From positions 1-49,130 of IMG/VR virus record IMGVR_UViG_3300036719_003116: a stretch of DNA of 49,130 bases; one strand, written 5' to 3'. This DNA is from a virus. Made by a program: the position numbers and the translations under genes. Below the pieces are notes generated by a model. It was not told where the DNA came from. It did not search any database and worked only from the letters and a program-made list of their open reading frames with translations. Below are positions 2,256-42,368 of this stretch, piece by piece; the first letter of the stretch is position 1, and every line of letters starts with the position of its first letter.

Positions 2256-3335
2256 ATGACTGCTACAATCGCTAGACAACAACAATCGAATACTTGGGAA
2301 CAGTTTTGCCAGTGGGTTACATCAACCGATAACCGTCTTTATGTTGGTTGGTTTGGAGTCCTCATGATTCCTTGCCTGCTTGCTGCTACTATCTGCTTCA
2401 TCGTTGCCTTCATCGCTGCTCCTCCTGTGGACATCGACGGCATTCGTGAACCCGTTGCTGGTTCACTCATGTATGGAAACAACATCATTTCTGGTGCTGT
2501 TGTTCCTTCGTCCAATGCAATTGGACTTCACTTCTATCCTATTTGGGAAGCTGCTTCTCTTGATGAGTGGCTATATAACGGTGGGCCATTCCAATTGGTC
2601 GTCTTCCACTTCCTGATTGGTATCTATGCTTACATGGGTCGTGAATGGGAACTTTCCTACCGTCTTGGTATGCGTCCTTGGATCTGTGTTGCTTACTCTG
2701 CTCCTGTTGCCGCTGCTTCTGCAGTGTTCCTTGTCTATCCTTTCGGTCAAGGTTCCTTCAGTGATGCAATGCCTCTCGGAATCTCGGGCACGTTTAACTA
2801 CATGCTCGTCTTCCAAGCAGAACACAATATCCTTATGCATCCTTTCCATATGCTTGGCGTGGCTGGGGTATTTGGTGGCAGCCTCTTTAGTGCTATGCAC
2901 GGAAGTCTGGTTACGTCTTCACTCGTTCGTGAGACTACTGAAAACGAATCCCAAAACTACGGATATAAGTTTGGACAAGAAGAAGAGACCTACAACATCG
3001 TAGCTGCTCACGGTTACTTTGGACGATTGATCTTCCAGTATGCATCGTTCAATAACTCACGTTCGCTGCACTTCTTCCTTGCCGCTTGGCCCGTCGTTGG
3101 TATTTGGTTTGCTGCTCTTGGTGTTAGCACCATGGCATTTAACCTCAATGGTTTCAACTTCAACCAGTCGCTGCTTGACAACAATGGTCGTGTCATCAAC
3201 ACTTGGGCTGACATTCTGAACCGTGCTAACCTTGGCTTTGAGGTAATGCACGAGCGTAACGCCCACAACTTCCCTCTTGATCTTGCTGCTGCTGATATGA
3301 CACCTGTTGCTCTGACTGCACCTGCAATTGGATGA
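2256..3335 (+). CDS. psbA: photosystem II D1 protein
   Basis: This is full-length D1 (359 aa), the reaction-centre subunit that binds P680 chlorophyll, pheophytin and QB in the host thylakoid. All key residues are in place: Tyr161 (YZ), His118, His190, His198, His215, Ser264, His272, and the manganese-cluster ligands Asp170, His332, Glu333, His337, Asp342 and Ala344, followed by a 15-residue tail that host CtpA would remove. Position 130 is Glu, the variant tied to high-light D1 forms in cyanobacteria. Phage D1 keeps photosynthesis running while host D1 turns over during infection. There is no intron. The gene is visibly more GC-rich than its neighbours, in line with host origin. Confidence 0.98.
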
Positions 3336-16914: not shown

Positions 16915-17640
16915 ATGCCTTTACCAGAAATTACTGTACCCCAGTTTGAGCTTGTTCTTCCTTCAAATAAAAAGAAGATTAAGTTTAGACCATTTATTGT
17001 AAGAGAAGAAAAACTTTTAATCATTGCTTTAGAATCTAGAGATCCTCAACAAGTTACAAATACAATTAAACAAGTTTTATCTAATTGTATTTTGACAAAA
17101 GGAATTAAGATTGATGAGTTGCCTTCTTTTGATATTGAATATTTGTTCTTAAATATTCGTGCTAAGGCAATTGGTGAAGCGATTGAACTCAATATTACCT
17201 GTATAGATGATCCTGAAATCAAAATTCCAGTAACCTTATTTGTGGATGAAATTCAGGTTCAATATCCTGAGGGACATACTGATAAAATTAATATGGAAAA
17301 TGGATATTATTGGAAGATGAAATATCCATCTTTAAATCAATTTATTGAAAACAACTTTGACGTTTCAGAAAAATCTTCTGAGAATGTTGAGAGATCTGTA
17401 AAACTCATTGCATCATGTATTGAAAGTGTTTATAACGATGAAGATTGTTGGATGGCATCTGATTGTACTGATACTGAATTAATTTCTTATGTTGAAAAAT
17501 TAACTCCAAAACAATACAAAAAAATTGAGGAGTTTTTTAAAACAATGCCTAAATTATCTCATACAATTACAGTTGTTAATCCAAATACAAATAAAGAAAC
17601 TAGTGTCGTTTTGGAGGGCTTATCCGATTTTTTCGGCTAG
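16915..17640 (+). CDS. 26: baseplate hub assembly protein (gp26 homologue)
   Basis: This 241-aa protein resembles the T4 base plate family represented by gp26: MPLPEITVPQFELVLPS, KIKFRPFIVREEKLLIIALES, an acidic middle, a YWKMKYPSLNQFI block and LTPKQYKKIEEFFKTMP near residues 201-217. In T4 the gene is followed by 51 and 27, and a gp27-like gene follows here after two hydrolases. Its last codons contain the slippery heptamer TTTTTTC (17628-17634), where a -1 shift would skip the TAG and add 60 residues, as in phage tail-assembly chaperones. Confidence 0.82.
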   Translation: MPLPEITVPQFELVLPSNKKKIKFRPFIVREEKLLIIALESRDPQQVTNTIKQVLSNCILTKGIKIDELPSFDIEYLFLNIRAKAIGEAIELNITCIDDPEIKIPVTLFVDEIQVQYPEGHTDKINMENGYYWKMKYPSLNQFIENNFDVSEKSSENVERSVKLIASCIESVYNDEDCWMASDCTDTELISYVEKLTPKQYKKIEEFFKTMPKLSHTITVVNPNTNKETSVVLEGLSDFFG

Positions 17641-17816
17641 CCCTAGCCAAAGAAGATCTTGAAACTTATTACAGGATCAACTTTGCGCTAATGCATGTAC
17701 ACAAATATTCATTAACTGAAATTGAAAACATGATGCCATGGGAGAGAGAGATATATCTTGAACTTCTAAAACAGTACATAGAAGAAAAGGAAGCAGAGAA
17801 ACAAAAAAATGGATGA
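17634..17816 (+). CDS. C-terminal extension of gp26 by -1 ribosomal frameshift (probable)
   Basis: The -1 frame is open from 17604 to the TGA at 17814-17816. The zero frame reads GAT TTT TTC GGC TAG, so T TTT TTC (17628-17634) is a canonical X-XXY-YYZ slip site. After a -1 slip, translation continues with CGG at 17634 for 60 codons, giving a 300-aa fusion. The extension has a Y-x-x-N-x-A-L segment, KYSLTEIENMMPWERE and a charged helix rich in Glu and Lys, like the ends of lambda GT-type chaperones. An internal ATG at 17691 could instead give a free 41-aa protein. It occupies the T4 gene 51 position and overlaps the next gene by 8 nt. Confidence 0.7.
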   Translation, partial: RLALAKEDLETYYRINFALMHVHKYSLTEIENMMPWEREIYLELLKQYIEEKEAEKQKNG

Positions 17817-19116
17817 AGAATCGCCAAAACCATTAAACATCAGTAAATTTTTTGGTAGAGGAGAGGAGTCTCTTGTGGAAGCTGCTGCTCCACAACCTGC
17901 AGTTAAGACCCCCATATTATCTGGAGGATTTGATTTATCTAATCTATTGAATATTATCAATACTCAAATAGATTTGAAATCTGAAAGTGATGATTTAAAA
18001 GAAGATGTTGAAAATATAAGATTGCAAAGTTTGGTTGATAGTTTAACAGGTAGAGTAAACAAATTAACATCAGAATTGTCTGGATTGTTTTCATTAATTA
18101 TCGGAGACATAAAGGAAAGAGATTCACAAAAAAGAGCAGAATTAAAATTAGCAATACAGCAACAGTCTGAAATTTCAAAGGCAGTTGCATTGCAAGCTTT
18201 GCAACAAGGTGCTGGACAAATAGCAGAAACTTCAGAAGCATCTAAAGAAGAAGTTGTAGGAACAATGGAATCCAATCGACAAATGGATTTATTAACTGCT
18301 TCTTTAGGGTTGGGTGCAGGATTTTTAACAGAAAGACTTAATAACCAAGATAATCAAGATAAATTTGATTATCCTGGTGGAACTCTTTCTATGAAAGACT
18401 TAGTTAATCTTGCTGAGCAAGTAGGGTTCAAAGGAGACAACATACCTCTTGCTGCAGCAATTGCTATGGGGGAATCTCGTGGAGACCCTGCAATTGATAC
18501 TGTGAAATCTGGTACAGATCCAGATATGAAAAATGAATATTCAATTGGACTGTGGCAAATCAACTGGTTAGCACATAAAGGTGGAGCTGCTCTTACACAA
18601 TTAGGCGTAACCAATCCAGATCAATTGCGTGATCCTATGACAAATGCTAAAGCAGCCTTAGCAATTTCTGGAGGATCTAATTTTTCACCATGGACTGTAT
18701 ACACTGGAGGAACTTATAAGGCATATCTGGATAGTGCTAAAAAGGAATATGAAGGATCGACAAATAATAATGAACAAGCATCAGCAACTCCAGCAGCTCA
18801 AACTCAACCAATAGCAAGTGCAAGTCTTAATAAACCTGCAGCAACTGGAGATCCATCTTCTGTAGCAAAAATATCAACTCCAGGAGCTATGGTTTCTGCT
18901 GCACAAGTTGAATTGAATACAAAAACATTGATGCAAGATACTGCTGAATCACAGAACATGATTGCAATTTTACCTCCAGCAGCACAACAACAAAGTGCTC
19001 CAGCATCTTCAGTATCGGATACATCTGCAGATGCAACGAACCCAATTTTCTCTGCAGTAAATAGGAACGATCCATATCCAGCATCGATAGCTTTACAAAC
19101 TAATGTTGTTGTTTAA
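17809..19116 (+). CDS. tail protein with lytic transglycosylase-like domain
   Basis: This is a 435-aa protein. After a flexible N-terminus comes a long helical/coiled-coil region (residues about 40-190) ending in a short Gly/Leu-rich stretch. Residues about 198-325 look like a soluble lytic transglycosylase fold: an AAAIAMGESRGDP block with Glu222 as likely catalytic acid, EYSIGLWQINW, and an FSPWTVY end. The last 110 residues are a low-complexity Ala/Gln/Ser/Thr tail. Cleavage of peptidoglycan glycan strands during infection is the probable role. The start overlaps the frameshift extension. Confidence 0.82.
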   Translation: MDEESPKPLNISKFFGRGEESLVEAAAPQPAVKTPILSGGFDLSNLLNIINTQIDLKSESDDLKEDVENIRLQSLVDSLTGRVNKLTSELSGLFSLIIGDIKERDSQKRAELKLAIQQQSEISKAVALQALQQGAGQIAETSEASKEEVVGTMESNRQMDLLTASLGLGAGFLTERLNNQDNQDKFDYPGGTLSMKDLVNLAEQVGFKGDNIPLAAAIAMGESRGDPAIDTVKSGTDPDMKNEYSIGLWQINWLAHKGGAALTQLGVTNPDQLRDPMTNAKAALAISGGSNFSPWTVYTGGTYKAYLDSAKKEYEGSTNNNEQASATPAAQTQPIASASLNKPAATGDPSSVAKISTPGAMVSAAQVELNTKTLMQDTAESQNMIAILPPAAQQQSAPASSVSDTSADATNPIFSAVNRNDPYPASIALQTNVVV

Positions 19117-19121
19117 GTATC

Positions 19122-20075
19122 ATGGCTAAAATAACAGCAGCTGATGTTGAAAAGGACATACAAAATGTTAATATTAGATTGCAAGGATTAGATTATCTTA
19201 TTAATAAAAATGAGAATGAATATCTAACAAAAAAAAGTTTACTTAAAACTAATGAAGGCATTTTAAAAACAATCAAAAAAAGTATTCAAAGAGAAGAAGA
19301 TGAATACAATAATCAAATACAAGATAACGAAGAAACTGCAGTACAGAAAGTAAATAGAAAACGTATAGAAGAAAATAGAAAAGAACAGCAACGAAATGTT
19401 GATTCAAAAGTAGATAGACTTATTCTACAATCAATGATGGGAGTTGGTGCTGGTGGTTTATTGGCATCTCAAATTCAAGAAACAGTAACAGGTTCTAAAC
19501 CAGATGGAACAAATGGAAGATTAAAAGCAGATCAATTAAAAGATGTTGGTGATGGTTTTAAATTATGGACACCAGCTGCAGATGCATATCTTGAAATGAA
19601 AGCAGCAGCTGCAAAAGATAAAGTGTATTTTAAATTGAGTAGTGCTTATAGAACTGTAGAAGAACAGCAGGCTCTTGTGGATGAATTGGGAACATGGAGT
19701 CCAACAAATCCAGGTGCAGCACCACCAGGAACATCAGCACATGGTTGGGGCATTGCAATTGACATTAGTTCTCCAGGAGCACAGCAATGGATTAACAGAT
19801 ATGGTGCAAAGTATGGGTGGGTTCCAACAGTTTCAAATGAACCATGGCACTTTGAATGGAGAGGTGGACAACCTAAAGCGGAACCAGTATCAAATACAAA
19901 CGTACAAAAAATAAGTCAAACTCCAACAAAAACAAGTGCAGGTCTTATATCATTCAATACTCCTCAAGCACCAGAACCATCGTATCCATTACTTCAACCA
20001 GAAATTGCTTCTGCTGCGAGTAAGCCAATAAATAAACCTAGACCCAATCCGTTCTTTATTGTACCTACTGGTTAA
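19122..20075 (+). CDS. tail protein with M15 (VanY/D-Ala-D-Ala) peptidase domain
   Basis: This 317-aa protein has an N-terminal coiled coil (residues about 5-100, rich in Asn, Lys and Glu), then an M15 zinc peptidase domain near residues 140-250: S205-A-H207-G-W-G-x-A-x-D214 is the SxHxxGxAxD motif, and EPWH243FEW supplies the third zinc ligand. A Pro/Thr-rich tail follows. It would cut peptide cross-links of peptidoglycan, complementing the transglycosylase just upstream. The 5-nt gap and similar coiled-coil start suggest joint assembly in the hub or tail. Confidence 0.87.
   Translation: MAKITAADVEKDIQNVNIRLQGLDYLINKNENEYLTKKSLLKTNEGILKTIKKSIQREEDEYNNQIQDNEETAVQKVNRKRIEENRKEQQRNVDSKVDRLILQSMMGVGAGGLLASQIQETVTGSKPDGTNGRLKADQLKDVGDGFKLWTPAADAYLEMKAAAAKDKVYFKLSSAYRTVEEQQALVDELGTWSPTNPGAAPPGTSAHGWGIAIDISSPGAQQWINRYGAKYGWVPTVSNEPWHFEWRGGQPKAEPVSNTNVQKISQTPTKTSAGLISFNTPQAPEPSYPLLQPEIASAASKPINKPRPNPFFIVPTG
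20027..20034 (+). promoter_or_regulatory. possible late promoter AATAAATA before the hub gene
   Basis: AATAAATA inside the 3' end of the M15 gene, 40 nt before the hub start at 20075. The octamer and distance fit a late promoter, but the coding location makes chance possible. Confidence 0.42.
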
Positions 20076-26936: not shown

Positions 26937-29900
26937 ATGCCTTTAAGCAGATTAGAGAATTTCTTAAAGAACACTGATGGTAACATTCTATACGTCAATC
27001 CATCAGATTTAGATGCCACAGATAGTATTGAAAACCAGGGTAATTCTTTAACCAGACCCTTTAAAACAATTCAGAGAGCTTTACTTGAAGCGGCAAGATT
27101 TTCATATAATATTGGTCAAAATAACGATAAATTTGATAAGACCACAGTTTTAATTTATCCTGGAACTTATACAATTGATAATAGACCAGGATTATCAGCA
27201 GCAAGTGTTGGTGGAAATGCACAATATAGAGACATCAATGGCAATCTAGGCACTTTAACAGAACTTACAAATACTTCTAATTATGACATTGAAGATCCTT
27301 CTAATGTCTTATACAAATTTAACTCAACTACAGGTGGTGTAATTGTTCCTAGAGGAACATCAATTGTTGGATTAGATCTTCGTAAAACTAAAATTCGTCC
27401 AAAATTTGTTCCTGATCCCACAAACGCAGGAATTACTAGCACATCAATCTTTAAAATTACTGGTGGTTGTTACTTTTGGCAATTTTCTGTATTTGATGGT
27501 GATCTGAATAATTCAGTTTATTATGATTATGTTGGAAATACAAAAACTCCAACATTCTCTCACCACAAACTTTCAGTATTTGAATATGCTGATGGTGTAA
27601 ATGGTGTTGGTGTTGGAACATCATCTGCATATAGTGATTTGCAGATGTATTATTATAAAGTTGCTCAAGCTTATGGTGATAGCTCTGGTAGAGCAATTAA
27701 TGATTTCCCATCAAATCTTGACTTTGAACCAAATACTCCAGAATTTAAAATCGTTGGTGCTTTAACTGCAAATGATATTGGTATTTCCAGCGCAACTTAT
27801 GCTGGCAACTTAATCACAGTTGACACATCAACAGCTCATGGATTAAACATTGATGATCCAATAAGAATTAGTGGCTTTACTTCTACATCTTATAATGGTT
27901 CTTATACTGTAGTTGGTGTTGCAAGTGCGTCCAGATTCCAATATAGATCAAGTGCTACACCCACAGGAACAGGTGTTTTACTAAATGGTGGTGAAAAACT
28001 TGTAGTTGAAGCTGATAATGTAAGCGGAGCATCTCCATACATTTTCAACTGCAGCATGAGATCTGTTTTTGGTATGAGCGGATTAAATGCCGATGGTGCA
28101 AATGCAACAGGATTTAAGTCAGTTGTTGTTGCACAATTTACTGGCATTAGCCTTCAAAAAGATGATAATGCTTTCGTAATTTATGACAAAACTTCGGGAA
28201 CTTATCAAGACGAAAATACAACTGCAGAATCAAATAGACCTTTACATTTAAATTCAAGAGCAATTTATAAGCCAGAATATGCAAATTATCATGTTCGTGC
28301 TGCTAATGGTGCATTTATTCAGTGCGTTTCTATCTTTGCTATTGGTTATGCACAGCATTTCTTAGCAGAATCTGGTGGTGACCTATCAATTACCAACTCT
28401 AACTCTAACTTTGGTGCAAAATCTTTAGTATCTAGAGGATATAGAGCAGAATCATTTGATCGTGATGATGTAGGTTACATTACTCACGTTATTCCTCCTA
28501 AAGATAATGATTTAGTAATCGATCCCGTTTCTTGGGTTTCATTAGACGTTGGTTTATCAACATCAACCGCAGGTGTTGGAACAACTGCAAGAATGTATTG
28601 CTATGATTTTACAGATCCTGACAATGCACCACCATACGTTTTAAGTTCTTATAGAATTGGTGCTAAAAATGATGAACTCTTAAATGTACTTGTTTCTACA
28701 GGATCTTCTGAAGTAGCTGTAACTGCTCCAGTGTTGATGCCAACTCCCGATTCTACTGACGGGCCTTCTGGTGAAAAGAGCTATAGAATTATTCGTGTTG
28801 GTGCTGCTAATAGCATTACTTCTAATAATACTTTAAATCTAGAATCAAATCATCAACTATTCACTGGAGAATCTGTAAGGGTATTCACTGACAATGGTGC
28901 AATGCCAGATGGTCTTGAAGCTGATACGTTATATTATGCAATTACTGGAGGGCTGTCTGCAAACCAAGTTCAATTGGCAAAGAGTTTCAACGATTCTATT
29001 ACTGGAACTCCTATTCCAATTACAATTAGCAATAATAAAGGTGGTTTATTAACTCTTGTAAGTAGAGTATCTGATAAGACACCTGGAGATTTTGGTCACC
29101 CAATTCAATATGATACAACTAGAAAAAATTGGTATATTACATCTTCAAATAATCCAACAAGAAACAGAATTCACACCAACTTCATAACATATAGACAATT
29201 TTTAACAGATTCAAGTTCCAAAACATATATCGAAAGAAGACCAGATACCAGAAATGTTCAAGACAGAATCTATAGATTTAGATATGTAATTCCAAGAGAA
29301 TATGGTACAACAGCAGCAAATGCTAAACCACCTTCAATTGGTTACATCATCCAAGAGTCTAAGACTGTTGGTGTCAATAATGCATCAGAATTCTCTTCAG
29401 TAACGAATTCAATTCAAAAGAGAAATACTAGAATTATTCATAGTGTATCGCATGACCAATCTGCAGGAATTTGTACTGTTGTAACTGAAAATCCTCATAA
29501 ATTTAATATTGGTGATAAAATTAAAATTAATAAAGTAAAGAGTGCTAATAATCCAGTTGGAGCTGCTAACTCTGGATTTAATGGTGTATTCCCTGTCGTT
29601 GGGATTACAAGTGATAAAGGATTCACAATTAATCTTTCTTCAACTCCAGGTGCTTATATCAATGTATCTTCAACAAGAAATGAAAATCTGCCAACAGTAT
29701 CAAGAGATGCATTTAGAAATACCTATACAATTTATACAATAGATACCATTCAAGAACAAGTCTTTAATAAAGCTGATGGTGTTTATCATATAACATGTAT
29801 CGCTAATAACGTTTCACCAACGGATTCATATTTTGCAGGGGATAATTATTCTCAAAACACTGGAAATCTTTATCCAACAAGAGATAGGGATAATTATGAA

Positions 29901-32900
29901 GATGATCCTGAAGCAGCAGTAAGTTATTCATCAAATGAAAAGTTAGGTAAAGTTGTTGTTGGAAATAGAAAGCATAGTTTAACTAGAGAAACTGTAGAAA
30001 CTTTCTTAAGAGATACTAGAATTGGTGTTGCAATTACAAATGCACAACATACATCTGGAGTTACTACTTATTATACGGATATCCAGCATAACTTAAATTC
30101 AATTAGAAGACTTTCTATCACTGGATTTGGAACTAATTACGGTTATTCTGGTATTGCAACTGTTCTCTATAATGCGTCTTTAATTGGTATTGGAATTACT
30201 GGACAAGGTGCAACTGTTAATATTTCAGTAAGTGCTGCTGGTACTATTAATGGAGTAACTCTTGTAGATGGTGGATCTGCATATGGTGTTGGTCAAACTA
30301 TGACCGTTGTTGGTGTTACCACCAGAGCAAGTTGGCGAGCAGCCGTTGTAAGAGTAGAAGAACTTAATAATAATGTTGGAGATACTTTAACTGTTGTTGG
30401 TGTTGGAACAACAGGAAATCGTTACTATAGTGCTTACAATGGATTATTCAGAATTTCTGGTATTTCAAGTTCTAGATCTGTTACTGTAACTTCTTCAGTT
30501 AATCCTGGAATTTATACTTCATCTTCTGGTTTCCTTTATTTAAATGATGAGACTAAAGATATTACCAATATTCAATATACCAATTCAACTTCAGGAATTG
30601 TAACTGTAACAACATCTTTTGCACATGGTCTTTCGGTTGGAAATAGATTTACAATCGTAGGATCTGCACAAACTGTATTCAATGGTAACTACACTGTTGA
30701 CGAAAGATTGGGAGTTACAAGTTTTACTTTCTATAGAGGTGCTGGATTTAATACTGCATCATTTACTGGTGGTAGTGTGTTCTTACTCAGAGATTCTGTT
30801 GGATCTCAAAATGCAACAAGTAATGCTGTCGATGAGCATCTTGCAAGCAGAATGATTCCATTCTATTCTGGAATTGGAACTGTTTCTTCTTCAGGAATTA
30901 CGACTACTGCAAGCACAATTACTTTACAAAATATTGTTGGTGTTAATACTGGCGATTATTTACAAGTAGATAACGAAATTATTAGAATTTCAGGTGGAAT
31001 TAATACTTCAACAAATACTGCTTCTATTCTTAGAGGTTTATTTGGAACGAAGGCAGAATCACATGATGCTGCATCAATTGTTAGAATTGTTGACGTAGTT
31101 CCAACAGAACTCAGAAGACATAGTATTATCCGTGCTTCTGGACATACTTTTGAATACGTTGGTTTTGGTCATGGTAATTATTCAGTATCCTTCCCACAAA
31201 GACAAGATAGAAATCTTACCAGAGAAGATCAATTATTAACACAATCAAGTAATCAAGATGGAGGTACATCTGCTTATACTGGAACAAATGATGCTGGTGA
31301 ATTTTATATCGGCAACAAGATTATTGATCCTGTAAGTGGTAAAGAAGTTTCGATTAATATTCCAACTGAAACTTATATTGGAGAAACGGATTCTAGCCTA
31401 TCAGTAAGTTTTGATGATGTAACGATTGCAAATACATTACAAGTTAATGGTGGCGCTGGAAACTTCCAGTCATCGGAATTTAGAGGTCCTATAAACATCT
31501 ATAAGAAGGTAACTTCTAACTCCTCTGATGGCATTGAAGCAATTCAATTCTTAATGAAAGGAAATGCTTCTCAAACAAGATCAATCACAGTTGGTATTTC
31601 AACACCAACAAATGCTGGAACTCAAGGCGACGCTGTTTTTTCTACGGGAACGATTGCTGGAGGATATGCTGGTTGGGTTAACATTGGATCAAATAACTGG
31701 AGAAGATTTGGTTTAGTAAGCAGAAGTGCTAATTCCAATTTAGTCACACCAGATCAAATTGGTATCAATACCATCACGCCAAGAGATTTGGTTGACATTA
31801 GAAATGGTGGTATTGTTGTTCAGCAACTTAGAGTAACTGGTATTGTTACATTTGATAACGGTGGTCTATTCAATGATATTACATTTGGTACAATTGATTG
31901 TTTGGGTGTTTCAACATTCCGTGGAAATATTGAACAGACTGTAGGAGTTGCAACATTCCCCAATTTAAGAACTGCGGGAATTGGAATAACTAATTTGAGT
32001 GTAACTGGAATTGCTACGTTTAGTGGTAGTGCTAATAATATTCAGCAAACTGCAGGAACAGCAGAACTTAATAGATTGAGAGTTTCTGGTGTCACCACAT
32101 TTGTTCAAAATGTTGTTGCTGATACTTTAAATCCAACTACATTAAATGTAAGTGGCATTTCTACATTACCATTCCTGAATAATACTAACACTGTTCATAC
32201 AGGAATCACCACATTTAATAATAGTGGCAACAATATTGTACAGAGTGCAGGTACTGCGGCACTTAATCGTCTTACAGTCGCTGGTGTCTCCACATTTACT
32301 GGTCAGTTAAATGCTGGTACAGTTAGTGCAACACAATATAACGGAGCACTTCAATACAGCATTGGTGTTTCTGGTGCATTAACAATCACAAATAGCACTG
32401 CATTTAATAATAGTGAAAGTAAGACAATCAATCTCAATGCAACGTCAGCTAATACTGCAAACTTTGTTGTTCAACGTGACGCTTCTGGAAACTTTAGTGC
32501 TGGAACTATTACTGCAACAACTTTTAGCGGTTCATTAACAGGCAACGTTACTGGTAATGTAACTGGAAATGTAAATGGAAATTCTACAACTGCAACAACA
32601 GCAACAAATGTGGTTGGTACAGCAAATAGAATTCTCTATAATAACGGAACAAATACAACAACTACAACATCAAATCTGACTTTCGATGGAACAAATCTAA
32701 GTTGTGCTGGCGATATTACGGCATTTGCCTCTGACATTAGACTGAAAACAAATATTAAACCAATTGAAAATTCTCTTGATAAAGTTTGTAAGTTGCATGG
32801 ATTTACTTATAATTTCAATGATCTTGCATATAGCTTAGGACTTACTTCAACTCAAAGAATCGCTGGTGTGTCTGCACAAGATGTTTATGCAGTTCTTCCT

Positions 32901-33029
32901 GAGGCTGTTAAACCAGCACCTGCAAATCCTGATTACATGACGGTTCAATATGAAAAACTCGTTCCACTTCTTATTGAAGCAATTAAAGAATTGTCCGATA
33001 GATTAGAGAAATTAGAAACCAGAGGTTAA
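26937..33029 (+). CDS. giant tail fibre protein with C-terminal S74 chaperone domain
   Basis: This is a 2030-aa fibre. The N-terminal region (about 1-180) contains ILYVNPSDLDATD, RPFKTIQRALLEAARF and a VLIYPGTYTI strand, a pectate-lyase-like beta-helix start. The middle carries many repeats such as IVTVTTSFAHGLSVGN-type cassettes, then from about 1620 short G-[IV]-[AST]-T-F repeats (TGIATFSGSANNIQQTAG, VAGVSTFTGQLN). The C-terminal 99 residues are a peptidase S74 intramolecular chaperone: S1932-DIRLK1937 with the Ser/Lys dyad, GFTYNF, AGVSAQDV and a final coiled coil. It should trimerise the fibre and self-cleave. It is a late gene, with a gp38-like adhesin next. Confidence 0.88.
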   Translation: MPLSRLENFLKNTDGNILYVNPSDLDATDSIENQGNSLTRPFKTIQRALLEAARFSYNIGQNNDKFDKTTVLIYPGTYTIDNRPGLSAASVGGNAQYRDINGNLGTLTELTNTSNYDIEDPSNVLYKFNSTTGGVIVPRGTSIVGLDLRKTKIRPKFVPDPTNAGITSTSIFKITGGCYFWQFSVFDGDLNNSVYYDYVGNTKTPTFSHHKLSVFEYADGVNGVGVGTSSAYSDLQMYYYKVAQAYGDSSGRAINDFPSNLDFEPNTPEFKIVGALTANDIGISSATYAGNLITVDTSTAHGLNIDDPIRISGFTSTSYNGSYTVVGVASASRFQYRSSATPTGTGVLLNGGEKLVVEADNVSGASPYIFNCSMRSVFGMSGLNADGANATGFKSVVVAQFTGISLQKDDNAFVIYDKTSGTYQDENTTAESNRPLHLNSRAIYKPEYANYHVRAANGAFIQCVSIFAIGYAQHFLAESGGDLSITNSNSNFGAKSLVSRGYRAESFDRDDVGYITHVIPPKDNDLVIDPVSWVSLDVGLSTSTAGVGTTARMYCYDFTDPDNAPPYVLSSYRIGAKNDELLNVLVSTGSSEVAVTAPVLMPTPDSTDGPSGEKSYRIIRVGAANSITSNNTLNLESNHQLFTGESVRVFTDNGAMPDGLEADTLYYAITGGLSANQVQLAKSFNDSITGTPIPITISNNKGGLLTLVSRVSDKTPGDFGHPIQYDTTRKNWYITSSNNPTRNRIHTNFITYRQFLTDSSSKTYIERRPDTRNVQDRIYRFRYVIPREYGTTAANAKPPSIGYIIQESKTVGVNNASEFSSVTNSIQKRNTRIIHSVSHDQSAGICTVVTENPHKFNIGDKIKINKVKSANNPVGAANSGFNGVFPVVGITSDKGFTINLSSTPGAYINVSSTRNENLPTVSRDAFRNTYTIYTIDTIQEQVFNKADGVYHITCIANNVSPTDSYFAGDNYSQNTGNLYPTRDRDNYEDDPEAAVSYSSNEKLGKVVVGNRKHSLTRETVETFLRDTRIGVAITNAQHTSGVTTYYTDIQHNLNSIRRLSITGFGTNYGYSGIATVLYNASLIGIGITGQGATVNISVSAAGTINGVTLVDGGSAYGVGQTMTVVGVTTRASWRAAVVRVEELNNNVGDTLTVVGVGTTGNRYYSAYNGLFRISGISSSRSVTVTSSVNPGIYTSSSGFLYLNDETKDITNIQYTNSTSGIVTVTTSFAHGLSVGNRFTIVGSAQTVFNGNYTVDERLGVTSFTFYRGAGFNTASFTGGSVFLLRDSVGSQNATSNAVDEHLASRMIPFYSGIGTVSSSGITTTASTITLQNIVGVNTGDYLQVDNEIIRISGGINTSTNTASILRGLFGTKAESHDAASIVRIVDVVPTELRRHSIIRASGHTFEYVGFGHGNYSVSFPQRQDRNLTREDQLLTQSSNQDGGTSAYTGTNDAGEFYIGNKIIDPVSGKEVSINIPTETYIGETDSSLSVSFDDVTIANTLQVNGGAGNFQSSEFRGPINIYKKVTSNSSDGIEAIQFLMKGNASQTRSITVGISTPTNAGTQGDAVFSTGTIAGGYAGWVNIGSNNWRRFGLVSRSANSNLVTPDQIGINTITPRDLVDIRNGGIVVQQLRVTGIVTFDNGGLFNDITFGTIDCLGVSTFRGNIEQTVGVATFPNLRTAGIGITNLSVTGIATFSGSANNIQQTAGTAELNRLRVSGVTTFVQNVVADTLNPTTLNVSGISTLPFLNNTNTVHTGITTFNNSGNNIVQSAGTAALNRLTVAGVSTFTGQLNAGTVSATQYNGALQYSIGVSGALTITNSTAFNNSESKTINLNATSANTANFVVQRDASGNFSAGTITATTFSGSLTGNVTGNVTGNVNGNSTTATTATNVVGTANRILYNNGTNTTTTTSNLTFDGTNLSCAGDITAFASDIRLKTNIKPIENSLDKVCKLHGFTYNFNDLAYSLGLTSTQRIAGVSAQDVYAVLPEAVKPAPANPDYMTVQYEKLVPLLIEAIKELSDRLEKLETRG

Positions 33030-35834: not shown

Positions 35835-38800
35835 ATGTCCACGCCAATCAGAATTAAAAGATCTGCAGTTCCTGGTAAAGTCCCAACAACTACAGATTTA
35901 CAGCTAGGCGAGTTAGCTATTAATACTTATGATGGTAAAGCTTATTTAAAAAAAGATGTAAGTGGAACAGAATCAATTGTTAACGTTGGTGGTGGGTATC
36001 CTGGAAAAACATACTACGTTTCGGAAACTGGTTTAGATACAAACGACGGGGAAAATATTTCAAGTGCCTTTCTTACAATTAAGAAGGCTTTATCTGTATC
36101 AACTATTGGCGATACAATCGAGATTTCTTCTGGTACTTTTACTGAGATATTTCCTTTAACTGTACCCGCTGGTGTCATTGTACGTGGTAAAGGATTACGT
36201 TCAACAATCATTCAACCAACAGCAGGAACAGAAAGACTTGACTGTTTCTTACTGAATGGTGAAACAACAGTTGAAGAATTAACAGTTACTAATTTCTACT
36301 ACAACTCATCAACTGATACTGGTTATGCATTTAGATTTGCTCCTGGAATGGTTACTACCACCAGGAGTCCTTATGTTCAGAGAGTCACTGTACTCACACG
36401 AGGTTCGGTAACAACTGCATCAGATCCTTATGGATTTGATACTCCAGATAATTATCCCACCACAAAAGTTGCTGGTCGTGGTGCATTAATTGATGGTAGT
36501 GTAGTTTCTTCAGCTACTTTAGAACCAGCAATTCTTTTCAATGAAGCTACATTCATTACTCCAAACCAAACTGGTCTTAAGATGACCAATGGTGCAAGAG
36601 CTGAATGGGTTAACTGTTTTACTTATTTTTCCAGTGTTTCCATTGATGGTGTTTCTGGATCAGTTGGTGTTGGCAGTACAGCAGGTGCAACTCTAAAATT
36701 TGCTGGTCTCACCACATCAATTTCACCAAACTATGTTATTAAATATTATCAAGGTGGCCCAGCAGTAGCCATTGGTACTGTTACTTCGGTTGATGGTGCT
36801 TATGTAACCATTAGTGGAAAGGGTTCTGGCATCTTCAATGCGGTTGGAATTGGATCAACACAAGATGTTAGAATTTTCCAATCAAATGGAACTACTCAGG
36901 TTGGTACTGCTAGCACAATTCTTTGGGCAGACTATCAAAAATTTGGTGCAGATTTAAGAGCAATCGGTGCTGCTGCTAATTTTGGTACGATTGGTGTTCG
37001 TGGTGATGGAGCTGGTGTACAGCTAAGATTATTTGGTTATAACTTTGGTTGTGTTGGTTCTGGAAAAACATTTACACAAGATCCAACATTAACAGTTAGA
37101 TCTAATGAAGCTGTACAATTGAATGGTGGTCGTGTATTTTTCCAGTCTGTAGACCAGTTAGGCAACTTTAGAGTTGGTAATATTTTTGAAATTAGTCAAG
37201 AGACTGGGGCTGTTTCTCTTGCAAGTACAAGTGATATCAATATTGCAGGCACTGCAACGATTCAAAATCTTAATGTAATTGGTGTATCTACTTTTGGTAG
37301 CACCATTTTACATACTAATTCAAATTATACTACAAATCAGACTACTTATAACTTAATCAATAGTGCTGCTGGTGCTGTTAACTTTGCGGGTGCTGGTACG
37401 AGTATTGTTATTGGTGCAACTACAGGCATCACTACAATTAGAAATTATAGAGTTAATTTAAGTGGTGGTCAAGATTCTTTTACCACAACAGATGGAACAT
37501 TAGTTGTTGCTGGTGGTGTTGGAATTAGTAGCAATTTAAATGTTGGCAAAGATTTTAGAGTAACTGGTGTTTCAACGTTTGTATCTCCAGTTAGATTAGA
37601 TTCTTCACTAAGAGTTGCTGGCGTTTCTACATTTGTTGATGATGTAGAATTTATTGATCATATTAGAGTTACGGGTGTCTCTACATTCAGTAATCCTGTG
37701 ATGATTAACAGTAACTTAAATGTTACTGGAATTACTACTACTGGAAACTTTAGAGTTACAGGCATCTCCACATTAACTGGAAATGTTCAACTTTCAAATA
37801 ATCTTCAAGTAACTGGAATTGCTACATTCTCCAATACTATTAGTCATAACTCACAATTATTCATCACCAATCAATCAACATATAGATTTATTGATACGAC
37901 AACCACTACAGTTACTGCATTTGGTAATGCAACAAGCATTGGTATCGGTTCTACTAATGCTACATTAACCTTAAGACCTTCAACCGTAGTTGGTACTAAT
38001 GCTACTCAAACTTTATACAATACGGTAGCAACGACTGTCAATGCTTTTGGTGAAGCAACTACTCTTGGTATCGGTTCAACTAATGCCACATTAACTTCAA
38101 GACCTTCAACCGTAGTTGGTACTAATGCTACTCAAACTTTATACAATACAGTAGCAACGACTGTCAATGCTTTTGGTGCTGCTACATCAGTGAATATTGG
38201 TGCTAATAGTGGCACATTTACATTAGGCAATCCAACACTTGTTGGTACTCAAGCAACTCAAAATGTTTATAACACTGTAGCAACTACAGTAAATGCTTTT
38301 GGTGCTGCAACATCACTTAATCTTGGTGCTGCCACAGGAACTTTAACGGTTGCTAATCCAACAGCAACGTTTAGCAATGCAACAACCGTTAATATTAATG
38401 GTGCTAATCCAACAATTGCAGGATCAAGCGTAGGTACTTTATCTCTATTCAATGGCAATTTAACAACAGTTAATGCTTTTGGTGCTGCTACTAATATTCT
38501 TTTAGGTGCAACAACTGGTGTTACCACAATTAGAAATGTAACATTTGCACTTCCAAATGCAACTACTTTATCGATGGATGGGGCAAACCCAACCATTTCT
38601 GGCACAAGCACTGGCACACTCACATTATTCAATACAAATTTAACTAAAGTTAATGCTTTCCAGGCAGCAACAGACAACGTATTATTTGCAACCACAGGTG
38701 TTACAACAGTAAGAAATAATCTTTCTGTTACTGGTACGCTTACTGCAGGTAATTTTACAACTGCTGGTATTGCAACATTTAGTGGAAGTGCAAACAATAT

Positions 38801-41800
38801 TAATCAAACTGCTGGCACTGCTGCTCTCAATAGATTAACTGTTGCTGGAGTATCAACATTTACTGGGCAATTAAATTATGGAACAGCTTCTGGCACAACT
38901 TTAAACAATACTGGAACTGCAACATTTAATAATGTTAGTGTAACTGGAGTTCTAACTGCACCAACAGTTATTTCCTCTGCTGCAGGTAGCTTTACTCAAG
39001 TAAATGTAACTGGCATTGCAACAATTGCTAATTTTACAATTAGTAGTGGCATCATTACAGGACCTTCTGCAATTGTTATTGATCCTGCTGGTGTTGGTGA
39101 TAATACTGGTTCTGTTAGAATCAAAGGTGATTTATTTGTAGATGGCACACAAACAGTTATCAACTCAACAGTAGTTGAAACAGGTGATAAACTTGTTGGA
39201 TTGGGAACAACAGCAATTGAAGTCATAGTATTAAAAACAAATGTTAATTCATCAATCGGTTCTAGCATAATAACTGGAATATCTACAAGTTTTATACAAG
39301 TTGGATATGCAGTAAGTACTAATTCTACAGTTGGTGGCGGAAGTTCAGTCGTTAGTATTGGTTCTAGTGTAGTAACTTTAAGTTCAAATGTTAGTGCAAA
39401 TACTGATTTAACATTATCAAATGTTACAATTGGAATTTCAACTAACTTATTAAGTGGAATATCTACGTCTGGTATTATTGTAGGAGCAGCTTTATCAGCA
39501 ATTGAATTTTCTGCAAATACTTTTGTTTCTTCTATTGGAGTTGGTACAGTTTATTTTGCACCAAATTCTACAAACGTTGGAGTTGCAACAACAAGTGTTA
39601 CATTTACTAATAATGGTGTAATATATTTTACGGATTTATTCAGTGGTGATTATATCTCAGATGGCGGAGGTATTCTATTATATGGAAAAACAAATAAAAC
39701 ATTCACTTGGATTGATAATACAGATTCTTGGACTTCAAGTGAACATATAGATTTAGCATCTGGAAAAGTTTATAAGATTGGTGGAACTCAAGTTTTATCC
39801 TCTACAACTTTAGATATTAATACTGTAAATGCAACAACTGGAAACATTACAAATATCAATGGAACCAATGCAACATATACCAACGTAAATGCAACTGAAT
39901 TAAGAACTACTAATTTCAATACTTCAGGAATTGGTACAATTGTTACATTTACTGCAACTGATATAAATGCAGTTGGCATATCAACATTGCCTACTTTAAA
40001 TTCTAGTAACGCTACAATACTGGTGGCGGGAATTACAACAGCAAATATTCAAATTGGTATAGTTACTACTGGAACAATACAAACACTCAATGTTCCTACA
40101 GAAGCAACATTTAAAGTAATTAATAATGCAAATATTTCTGGTATAACTTCAATTAATTCTGGTATCGTTACAGACTTAATTGTTGGAGTTTCAAGTGTTA
40201 CAACATTACGTGCAAATTCTGGTATTATTACAGGATTAACTGTTGAAAACTCAAATACCACTGGTATTGCAACAGTAAATTATTTTGTAGCTAGCAATTC
40301 CACAATCACAGGAATTGCAACAATTAATACTGGCATTATTACAACATTAACAGCATCAAGAGCAGAATTAACTCAATCCAATGTTGGAATATTAACTGCA
40401 AATGTTGGATTTATTACGCAATTTAGTGCGTTAAGTGGAATTATTACCTCTTTATACACAACTGGTGTTGGCACAATATCTACTCTTTATGTTAATTCTG
40501 GAATAACAACAAGATCTACAATTACTGATTTAGATGTTACTGGCGTTGGATCTTTCGGGGTAATTGCAAATGTTAATACCCCCACAGGTCTTTCAACAAT
40601 TGGACATTTAACTGGTACAAATATTAATTATAGCGGTATTGCTACAATTGGAACTTTAATCGCTGGATTAACAACAATCACAACTTTAAATGTTACTGAC
40701 ATTTCATCACTTCCAAATCTTTATGGTTCTGATATTCAATACACTGGAGTTAGTACATTAACTAATGTAAGAGGAACCAATCTTTATTATAGTGGATTAT
40801 CAACTGCAGTAAACTTTAATAGCACTGATACGATTGTTTCAGGTGCAGCTTCTATTACTACATTACGTGCTAATGTTGGAATCATAACAAACTCTGTTTG
40901 GACTGATGGTTATTCTGCAGGTATTACGTCAGTTGCAACATTTAGAGCAAATAGTGGAATTATTACAACATTAACAGTAGCCAATTCAACACAAGGATAT
41001 CTTATTGGTACTGACATTTATTATAGTGGAATTGGTAGCATCAGTACGTTTAGAACCAATGTCGGATTTGCCACGTTCTTAAGTGGAACTAATTTAAGTT
41101 ATACTGGAGTATCAACTGTAGTTTCATTTAATGCAACTGATGTAAATGTATCGGGCACTACTACAATTTCTACATTATTAATTTCACCAAATAATCAATT
41201 AACGTATTTGAGTAATGGTGTAAATCTAGCATTTAGCGGAATTGGTACTATTAATACCTTAAGATCTAATGTTGGTTTTATTACAACATTATCTGGAACT
41301 AATTTAAATTATAGTGGCGTTGGCACTGTTGGATTTGTTAATGCTACAAATATTAACAGTTCAGGTGTTACAACTACTGTTAACTTTAGAGCTACCAATA
41401 TTAATGCTAGTGGTATAACAACAACATTAACATTACTTGTAAACCAAGTAACATCAAACGCAACCTTTAGCCGTTATACTTCAACTGCTGCGATTGTAAG
41501 TGGAGTATCATCCATTACAACGTTACGTGCCAATGTTGGAATTATAACAAATTCTACAGCAACAAATTTAAACGTTACTGGAATTGGAACAATTGTTACA
41601 CTGGTGGCAACCAACTTACAAGTAACGGGTGTTGGTACGATTGTTACATTAAATGGTACTAATTCTAACTTCACTGGTGTATCCACATTTAATGAATTAA
41701 GAGCAACATCAATTATTACTGATGCGTTAGATTTGAGTGGAACTGCAATTAACTTTACTGGTATTGCAACATTCAACACATTGTTCTCAACAAATGGAAC

Positions 41801-42368
41801 AATTGAATTTTTAAGAGGTACTAGCACAAACTTTACTGGCATTAATACTTTAGGCACAATTTACAATGTTGATATTAATAGCACTGGATTTACTACAACT
41901 AGAGGATTGCATGTTGGTGTTGGCGGAACTATATTAACTGCAACTAATGTAAGTGGAATTGGTTCTGTTGGCATTAATACCACTTCAGCAAAACATGCAT
42001 TGCAAGTTTGGGGTGAGTTTGGAATTAATGGAAATACCATTGTTGGAACAATTTCAACAACAAGAAACAATAATTCGGCTGTAAAAGTTCATACTTCTTT
42101 AGGTAGAGATGAATTTAGAACAGTAGAATATACAGTTCAAGCTTCGATTGGAAATACCCATCAAGTTACTAAAATTCTTTCTATTCATGATGGAGTAACT
42201 GCTTACAATTCTGAATATTCTAATATTTCTACTGGGGTTGATGTTGCAACTTATGATGTTCAAATTGATAACACAGTTCCACCAGGATTTATTGCTCTTG
42301 TTGTAACCCCAGTTTCTAACGTTGGAGTAACCACAATCGTTGTTAATTATACCGCCACCAGAATATAA
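35835..42368 (+). CDS. giant repeat-rich tail fibre or virion protein
   Basis: This is a 2177-aa protein. The start IRIKRSAVPGKVP with LQLGELAINTYDGKAY is the common N-terminus of phage fibre proteins. Next comes a beta-helix module (KTYYVSETGLDTNDG, AFLTIKKALSVS, IEISSGTFTE). From about residue 470 it is almost wholly short beta repeats of the G-[IV]-[AS]-TF type, including a run of about 42-residue units with TTVNAFGAAT (about 690-960) and many 15-residue units such as SITTLRANVGIIT (about 1320-2010). The end is a small domain without S74 motifs. It is probably a long trimeric fibre from a late promoter. Confidence 0.83.
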   Translation: MSTPIRIKRSAVPGKVPTTTDLQLGELAINTYDGKAYLKKDVSGTESIVNVGGGYPGKTYYVSETGLDTNDGENISSAFLTIKKALSVSTIGDTIEISSGTFTEIFPLTVPAGVIVRGKGLRSTIIQPTAGTERLDCFLLNGETTVEELTVTNFYYNSSTDTGYAFRFAPGMVTTTRSPYVQRVTVLTRGSVTTASDPYGFDTPDNYPTTKVAGRGALIDGSVVSSATLEPAILFNEATFITPNQTGLKMTNGARAEWVNCFTYFSSVSIDGVSGSVGVGSTAGATLKFAGLTTSISPNYVIKYYQGGPAVAIGTVTSVDGAYVTISGKGSGIFNAVGIGSTQDVRIFQSNGTTQVGTASTILWADYQKFGADLRAIGAAANFGTIGVRGDGAGVQLRLFGYNFGCVGSGKTFTQDPTLTVRSNEAVQLNGGRVFFQSVDQLGNFRVGNIFEISQETGAVSLASTSDINIAGTATIQNLNVIGVSTFGSTILHTNSNYTTNQTTYNLINSAAGAVNFAGAGTSIVIGATTGITTIRNYRVNLSGGQDSFTTTDGTLVVAGGVGISSNLNVGKDFRVTGVSTFVSPVRLDSSLRVAGVSTFVDDVEFIDHIRVTGVSTFSNPVMINSNLNVTGITTTGNFRVTGISTLTGNVQLSNNLQVTGIATFSNTISHNSQLFITNQSTYRFIDTTTTTVTAFGNATSIGIGSTNATLTLRPSTVVGTNATQTLYNTVATTVNAFGEATTLGIGSTNATLTSRPSTVVGTNATQTLYNTVATTVNAFGAATSVNIGANSGTFTLGNPTLVGTQATQNVYNTVATTVNAFGAATSLNLGAATGTLTVANPTATFSNATTVNINGANPTIAGSSVGTLSLFNGNLTTVNAFGAATNILLGATTGVTTIRNVTFALPNATTLSMDGANPTISGTSTGTLTLFNTNLTKVNAFQAATDNVLFATTGVTTVRNNLSVTGTLTAGNFTTAGIATFSGSANNINQTAGTAALNRLTVAGVSTFTGQLNYGTASGTTLNNTGTATFNNVSVTGVLTAPTVISSAAGSFTQVNVTGIATIANFTISSGIITGPSAIVIDPAGVGDNTGSVRIKGDLFVDGTQTVINSTVVETGDKLVGLGTTAIEVIVLKTNVNSSIGSSIITGISTSFIQVGYAVSTNSTVGGGSSVVSIGSSVVTLSSNVSANTDLTLSNVTIGISTNLLSGISTSGIIVGAALSAIEFSANTFVSSIGVGTVYFAPNSTNVGVATTSVTFTNNGVIYFTDLFSGDYISDGGGILLYGKTNKTFTWIDNTDSWTSSEHIDLASGKVYKIGGTQVLSSTTLDINTVNATTGNITNINGTNATYTNVNATELRTTNFNTSGIGTIVTFTATDINAVGISTLPTLNSSNATILVAGITTANIQIGIVTTGTIQTLNVPTEATFKVINNANISGITSINSGIVTDLIVGVSSVTTLRANSGIITGLTVENSNTTGIATVNYFVASNSTITGIATINTGIITTLTASRAELTQSNVGILTANVGFITQFSALSGIITSLYTTGVGTISTLYVNSGITTRSTITDLDVTGVGSFGVIANVNTPTGLSTIGHLTGTNINYSGIATIGTLIAGLTTITTLNVTDISSLPNLYGSDIQYTGVSTLTNVRGTNLYYSGLSTAVNFNSTDTIVSGAASITTLRANVGIITNSVWTDGYSAGITSVATFRANSGIITTLTVANSTQGYLIGTDIYYSGIGSISTFRTNVGFATFLSGTNLSYTGVSTVVSFNATDVNVSGTTTISTLLISPNNQLTYLSNGVNLAFSGIGTINTLRSNVGFITTLSGTNLNYSGVGTVGFVNATNINSSGVTTTVNFRATNINASGITTTLTLLVNQVTSNATFSRYTSTAAIVSGVSSITTLRANVGIITNSTATNLNVTGIGTIVTLVATNLQVTGVGTIVTLNGTNSNFTGVSTFNELRATSIITDALDLSGTAINFTGIATFNTLFSTNGTIEFLRGTSTNFTGINTLGTIYNVDINSTGFTTTRGLHVGVGGTILTATNVSGIGSVGINTTSAKHALQVWGEFGINGNTIVGTISTTRNNNSAVKVHTSLGRDEFRTVEYTVQASIGNTHQVTKILSIHDGVTAYNSEYSNISTGVDVATYDVQIDNTVPPGFIALVVTPVSNVGVTTIVVNYTATRI
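37941..38192 (+). repeat. tandem 126-bp repeat inside the fibre gene
   Basis: Two adjacent copies (37941-38066 and 38067-38192) encode 42 residues each and are nearly identical at the DNA level through the stretch from GGTATCGGTT to GTCAATGCTTTTGG. More diverged copies follow to about 38700. The preserved silent positions in copies 1 and 2 suggest a recent in-frame duplication. Confidence 0.8.

Follow-up and report, generated by a model that had tools for sequence, protein, structure and literature searches.

A probable programmed -1 frameshift extends the gp26-type tail assembly chaperone of an uncultured cyanophage

The gp26 homologue of an uncultured cyanophage ends with the codons GAT TTT TTC GGC TAG (17626-17640), in which a run of thymines lies one codon before the stop codon. 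This raises the question whether translation of the gene always ends at the TAG or whether part of the ribosomes changes frame on the thymine run and produces a second, longer protein. The DNA analyzed, hereafter the window, is the whole stretch of 49,130 nt of the IMG/VR record IMGVR_UViG_3300036719_003116, and all features described from the gp26 homologue to the gene behind it lie on its plus strand. The gp26 homologue (16915-17640, 241 aa) matches PF12322 (T4_baseplate, E 8.4e-66) and phrog_150 (E 8.2e-69) and is preceded by a gene for a tail-tube-like protein (PF23849, E 1.1e-13; phrog_45, E 7.9e-28). Elsewhere in the window an ORF of 359 aa (2256-3335) was recognized by eye as photosystem II D1 (psbA), which marks the window as cyanophage. 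Two ORFs at 26937-33029 (2030 aa) and 35835-42368 (2177 aa) show many 'TGVSTF'-like repeats by eye and perhaps encode tail fibre or other virion proteins.

The slippery heptamer T_TTT_TTC is located at 17628-17634 and the zero-frame stop TAG (17638-17640) follows one codon 3' of it. The first-pass annotation had proposed a probable -1 frameshift at this position; the zero-frame ending and the heptamer were exact to the base when the sequence was read again, and the open -1 frame from 17604 to 17816, the 60 added residues and the 8 nt overlap with the next gene were all re-derived. The extension (17634-17816), here called TAC-C, is the 'gp51' of annotated cyanophages and consists of 60 codons (17634-17813) followed by a TGA (17814-17816). 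The ATG of the next gene, which encodes a lysozyme-like (SLT) protein (17809-19116; PF18896, E 6.8e-21), is located at 17809. The locus shows the layout of a canonical bacterial -1 site, an X_XXY_YYZ sequence in phase before the zero-frame stop and an open -1 frame, and judged from its sequence it has the coding capacity for a short and a long form with a common N-terminal part.

We consider it very probable that a programmed -1 frameshift at T_TTT_TTC extends this gp26-type tail assembly chaperone (TAC) by 60 residues past the TAG. The heptamer, its phase, its conservation, the coding selection on the extension, the absence from the window of another start that could serve it, the TAC-like fold of gp26 and the fused equivalent in T4 all support this proposal. 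In the mechanism envisaged, part of the ribosomes would slip by -1 at T_TTT_TTC, pass the TAG and add the 60 residues, with the two tRNA-Phe in the P and A sites re-pairing on UUU UUU one base back. The major product would be the short TAC-N (241 aa) and the minor product the long TAC-NC (300 aa). If the analogy with lambda gpG/gpGT holds, the common part may coat the tape measure and the extension may recruit the tail tube subunits. A GGAGGG element upstream and an RNA structure downstream probably raise the slip frequency, in roles like those in E. coli dnaX. For the window, it is the occurrence and frequency of slippage, the roles of the stimulators and the division of labour between the two proteins that we infer.

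The bare string TTTTTTY is not rare in the window (51 matches, about 84 expected) and the evidence therefore lies in phase, position and conservation rather than in the string. Both strands together hold 48 mechanical ORFs of 100 aa or more (14,600 codons), and T_TTT_TTY occurs in frame three times among them, with a -1 frame of 61 codons behind the site at the end of gp26 and of 1-2 codons behind the other two.

Conservation was followed in two sets of relatives. The search seeded with gp26 gave 56 IMG/VR loci, of which four partial matches (L046, L050, L051, L056) were excluded before counting; the slip site is present in all 52 remaining loci and a complete -1 extension in 51 of them. The search seeded with the extension, a query that does not include the heptamer, gave at least 600 loci, and in each of the best 80, ordered by their match to the window's extension, TTTTTTC is separated by a single codon from a stop in the other frame (80/80). 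Combined with annotated phages, the set contains 154 loci in 84 clusters at 80% gp26 identity; outside it stand the duplicated T4-type genes (L064, L065, L068) and two loci fetched later (L162-L163). At the aligned columns NNT TTT TTN is found in 152/154 loci and 82/84 clusters, two or three codons before the stop, so that the check on relatives suggested by the first-pass annotation speaks for the frameshift. The codon preceding the slip ends in T in 82/84 clusters, with about 50 expected for the 82 from codon usage, and the first slip codon is TTT in 82/84 clusters, at a background of 70% TTT among the Phe codons elsewhere in gp26. The second slip codon is mostly TTC (78 of the 84 clusters), with TTT in four and TTG and TTA in one each. 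Clusters and pairs have common ancestry, and the P values in this work carry no phylogeny correction. By these comparisons, chance as the cause of the slip-site arrangement at the end of gp26 is ruled out.

The junction also decides on the idea that one gene was split in two, either by erroneous sequencing or by a recent frameshift mutation. Its only point is the fusion of both parts in T4 gp51, and it is refuted by the identical junction in 152/154 loci from many samples and isolates, which leaves it practically no probability.

Beyond the cyanophages, the heptamer pattern is found in Caulobacter phage Cr30, in Straboviridae of Vibrio, Aeromonas and Cronobacter, in Stenotrophomonas phage Moby, Acidovorax phage ACP17 and Desulfovibrio phage 7757. 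Variant heptamers occur in Rhizobium phage RHph_I1_9 (L067, T_TTT_TTG) and Pseudoalteromonas phage XG4 (T_TTT_TTA). Two of the 84 clusters, Salmonella phage Vi01 and Vibrio phage K448, have a -1 extension without the canonical heptamer, and Erwinia phage Bue1, which is outside the 84, resembles Vi01 in this respect. The heptamer-less junctions are located at L069:2200-2399 (Vi01), L080:2100-2312 (K448) and L162:1420-1602 (Bue1). Vi01 and Bue1, both Ackermannviridae, have the junction ATT TTC ATT TAA in common, which holds no T_TTT_TTN, and K448 is unclassified in its record. The extensions of Vi01 and K448 match phrog_9633 and, weakly, phrog_634.

If the frameshift is used, the extension should be read as protein, and several observations agree with this. 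The -1 stretch 17604-17816 matches phrog_634 (E 3.9e-29), which is annotated as 'baseplate hub assembly catalyst' (gp51), and the C-terminus of phrog_150 (E 5e-10); the latter match suggests that fused versions exist. The -1 frame is unbroken in 151 of the 152 loci with a slip site, the sole non-complete one being L016, whose extension ends at the contig end; the stops between slip site and extension that would have spoken against the first-pass reading were thus not encountered. In pairwise comparisons, which are not independent, the median dN/dS is 0.065 for the extension (322/429 pairs; 107 dropped because they were too short, less than 45% identical or saturated or because they lacked synonymous changes) and 0.127 for gp26 (417/429 pairs; 12 dropped). 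Differences in the extension fall on -1-frame codon positions 1, 2 and 3 in the ratio 2552/961/6672. From this substitution pattern we conclude that the -1 extension is under purifying selection.

Alternatively, the extension could be an independent gene 51 whose translation begins at a start codon of its own, through re-initiation or coupling behind gp26. A separate gp51 is annotated in P-SSM2, S-SSM7 and S-PM2, the first -1 start codon within 20 nt past the stop is an ATG in 43/84 clusters (TTG in 10, GTG in seven), and a -1 ATG overlaps the stop in Vibrio phage CZ01 and four others. However, 24/84 clusters lack any ATG, GTG or TTG of the -1 frame as far as 20 nt beyond the stop, and the window is one of them: none of these codons precedes the -1 ATG at 17691, and initiation there would lose about one third of the extension. 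A separate gene would moreover leave the codon choice in NNT TTT TTC unexplained, and in T4 the extension is fused in frame to a gp26-like part. The question of an own start, raised already in the first-pass annotation, is thus answered in two ways: the window has no start for the whole extension, but 43/84 clusters have a nearby ATG. Judged by the reading frames, many relatives could start gp51 separately, but this cannot be the mechanism common to all; as the explanation of the extension we regard it as unlikely. In five non-cyanophage relatives (L062, L063, L067, L071, L079) the -1 ATG overlaps the zero-frame stop as TAATG or TGATG. In these five, coupled re-initiation could take place alongside the frameshift, and free gp51 could arise as well.

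For a frameshift, sequences that stimulate slippage are of interest on both sides of the heptamer. The Shine-Dalgarno-like GGAGGG, a possible stimulator, is located at 17613-17618, 9 nt 5' of the heptamer. At this site the Glu codon is GAG in 55 of the 66 clusters that have Glu, at a background of 30% (P 3e-19, uncorrected for phylogeny). The mean pairing energy with the 16S tail is -7.76 kcal/mol, while the same protein recoded with resampled codons gives -5.21 kcal/mol (sd of set means 0.18), and pairing reaches -6 in 73% at the SD-like site vs 5% of gene-body 15-mers. The count of 4-nt SD-like matches shows no separation between real (73/82) and codon-resampled sequences (mean 73.1) and is uninformative, because the conserved Leu-Glu-Gly-Leu residues yield such matches regardless. 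When the relatives are grouped at 60% identity (24 clusters), strong pairing is seen in the window, most cyanophages, Caulobacter phage Cr30, L048, L066, Aeromonas phage 65 and Melnitz-2; seven distant lineages (L052, L055, L063, L067, L071, L078, L079) pair weakly. By these energies and codon choices, the SD-like GGAGGG in most cyanophage relatives is stronger than the encoded protein would demand.

Downstream of the slip site, folding was compared in 81 clusters (L016, L069 and L080 were left out), divided by a hand-made list into 64 cyanophage-type and 17 other clusters. The diverged L047, L055, L073 (Melnitz-2) and L078 (S-CREM2) were put among the others, although their records assign L073 and L078 to the Kyanoviridae. 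In the 45 nt after the slip, the 64 cyanophage-type clusters have a mean z of -2.94 against synonymous-codon controls, compared to -0.20 to -0.64 in six control regions, and 70% of them reach a folding p below 0.05 vs 11-22% in the control regions. The mean folding z of the 17 other clusters is -1.00. Selection for downstream folding in the cyanophage-type relatives is well supported by these predictions.

The predicted structures differ between lineages. The commonest stem, exemplified by L017, has up to 10 pairs and begins 6 nt behind the heptamer. Of these 10 pairs, 8 or more are formed in 32/64 cyanophage-type clusters and one in the window, which together with its near relatives has a different, irregular stem. 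In the window this predicted stem-loop spans 17644-17690, with 17644-17652 pairing with 17681-17690 and an inner helix of 17655-17661 with 17672-17678. The fold of 17635-17700 has an MFE of -19.9 and a z of -3.43 (2/200 shuffles were as good), and the 45 nt from 17634 give z -6.6 against the synonymous-codon control. The closest isolate, DSL-LC03 (L059), shows no folding signal (z 0.69). For L085 a z of -5.1 on 80 nt with a crude shuffle stands against 0.25 on 53 nt, and single-locus folds are therefore not to be trusted. The register of the stem shifts between clades (L021 vs L017), and RNAalifold on the 64 cyanophage-type sequences returned no consensus structure (0 pairs). When the commonest stem was imposed on the 64 sequences, 67.7% of the cells pair vs 27-42% in slid versions. 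Percent paired, double-changed cells and score beat 500/500 shuffles; for double-changed cells the values are 26 vs 14.0 in shuffles (0/500), but slid versions gave 14-41. The number of pairs with a double change and the pair types were not above the 500 shuffles. A single structure common to all relatives is not well supported by these alignments.

Both flanking elements bear on the possibility that the polymerase, rather than the ribosome, slips on the T run and produces a mixture of mRNAs. The window has a T6 run and a few relatives have T7-T8, which would favour such slippage, but T6 followed by C is kept in 76/82 heptamer clusters and T6 is shorter than the runs usually needed for transcriptional slippage. 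In addition, neither the anti-SD match upstream nor the folding downstream would be selected for if the polymerase slipped. We therefore regard it as very improbable, and ribosomal frameshifting remains the preferred explanation.

What the frameshift would extend is indicated by the fold of gp26. An AlphaFold2 model of the window gp26 was obtained with pLDDT 85.9 (21 sequences). Among 871 aligned chains the top two were the HK97 TAC (2ob9, Z 8.0) and YqbN (3klu, Z 7.5), which we take to be TAC-related, followed by matches with Z 5.0 and 4.2; the aligner itself cautions that Z 7-8 can reflect a common arrangement. The alignment with 2ob9 covers 84 residues (rmsd 3.5, gp26 residues 1-86), and both top matches lie within residues 1-88. 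TACs were ranked first by the second structural aligner only, as Foldseek alone gave no significant match for the model and placed 2ob9 at rank 39 (E 4.9). A gp26 profile against PDB sequences gave nothing up to E 1. The third fold match, 5ir0 (Z 5.0), is ORF19 of a PICI-like element of Vibrio cholerae; by its model match this protein may be TAC-like as well. The TAC-type architecture claimed in the first-pass annotation for gp26 and its extension gains support from the TAC-like fold and the family profiles. Its label 'T4-like hub protein' for gp26 is better replaced by TAC-N, in view of the HK97 TAC/YqbN fold matches and the profile comparisons. Most likely, the window gp26 is a TAC-N that the extension turns into a TAC-NC.

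TAC genes usually sit before the tape measure gene, with the tail tube gene on their other side. No tape-measure match was found for the ORF 17809-19116 in the profile search of the window, and the downstream gene of relatives gave weak tape-measure matches in S-PM2 and S-CREM2 and none in five others. The ORF at 19122-20075 carries a VanY-like domain and also matches the tape-measure family phrog_16823, but across the VanY stretch.

In the phage collection, the record nearest to the window gp26 shares 65% identity with it, and the family of the protein leads to T4. In T4, an ORF of 249 aa between gp26 and gp27 is unannotated in the record used and sits in the place of gp51; from the T4 map we take it to be gp51. 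This gp51 is a single in-frame ORF with PF12322 at residues 1-201 and phrog_634 at its end. T4 gp26 (208 aa) is a short form without slip site and lies on the opposite strand. Profiles of the relatives' parts match T4 gp26 (E 2e-22), gp51 residues 6-185 (E 1e-9) and, with the extension, gp51 residues 200-244 (E 8e-6). An in-frame T_TTT_TTN was found in none of the three T4-type gp26 genes compared (T4 strain 147, Krischvirus GoldenSnicker, Aeromonas phage Aes508), and none of the three has an extension after gp26. The first-pass remark that the extension sits at the T4 gene 51 position agrees with its match to the T4 gp51 C-terminus and phrog_634. The 'gp51' of cyanophages is then probably the C-terminal part of a frameshifted TAC and not a free 'hub assembly catalyst'. 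Annotations across a large group of phages would then need correcting, and T4 gp26 and gp51 would be connected with the TAC system known from lambda, HK97 and P2.

We lean slightly towards a wider interpretation, in which the T4-like cyanophages as a group set their TAC ratio by a dnaX-like three-part signal and the T4 lineage swapped this device for a gene duplication (short gp26 and fused gp51). If this is true, the signal consists of GGAGGG, T_TTT_TTC and a stem-loop that drifts in sequence and register between clades, each part being kept beyond the needs of the protein. The frameshift signal itself is compact and well conserved, and a frameshift in this gene is as a phenomenon expected rather than surprising.

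The work of Vladimirov, Gautam and Davidson (2022, Virology 566:9-15) reportedly concerns genes 26 and 51 of T4-like phages. According to excerpts of later papers that cite it, TAC-N genes of T4-like phages are known to carry poly-T slip sequences (PMC12846349), and some T4-like phages do without the frameshift and possess a short TAC gene beside a fused long one (PMC10885494). The first-pass annotation was not aware of a description of such a frameshift for the T4-like hub protein; by PMC12846349 the principle is already in print. A frameshift of a T4-like TAC is ordinary in kind. No report on the cyanophage form of the signal was found in the partly accessible literature surveyed, which did not extend to Vladimirov et al. 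(2022), and the three-part signal in cyanophages is possibly undescribed so far.

Among the known systems, the T4-like gp26/gp51 TACs have the protein family and the extension in common with the window, as seen from the PF12322 match of the N-terminal part and the phrog_634 match of the extension; the difference is that the window comes from an uncultured cyanophage. HK97 gp13 (2ob9) is the best solved fold match for gp26 residues 1-86, but identity is 7% and the window gp26 has about 150 further residues. Phage P2 E/E', in a contractile tail, uses a T run as slip site. It resembles the window in this T run and in the contractile tail, and recalls the T_TTT_TTG of the Rhizobium relative (L067). 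Lambda gpG/gpGT is likened to the window by mechanism, and its slip sequence is different. PMC5009743 describes the -1 frameshifted tail chaperone as established in lambda and many dsDNA phages. For E. coli dnaX, an upstream internal SD, a slippery heptamer and a downstream structure are described in PMC5600365. The window may have the same three-part layout, with GGAGGG, the heptamer and a predicted downstream fold.

The two differ in that the heptamer of the window is T_TTT_TTC and in the outcome, as the slip truncates the protein in dnaX whereas in the window it would lengthen it.
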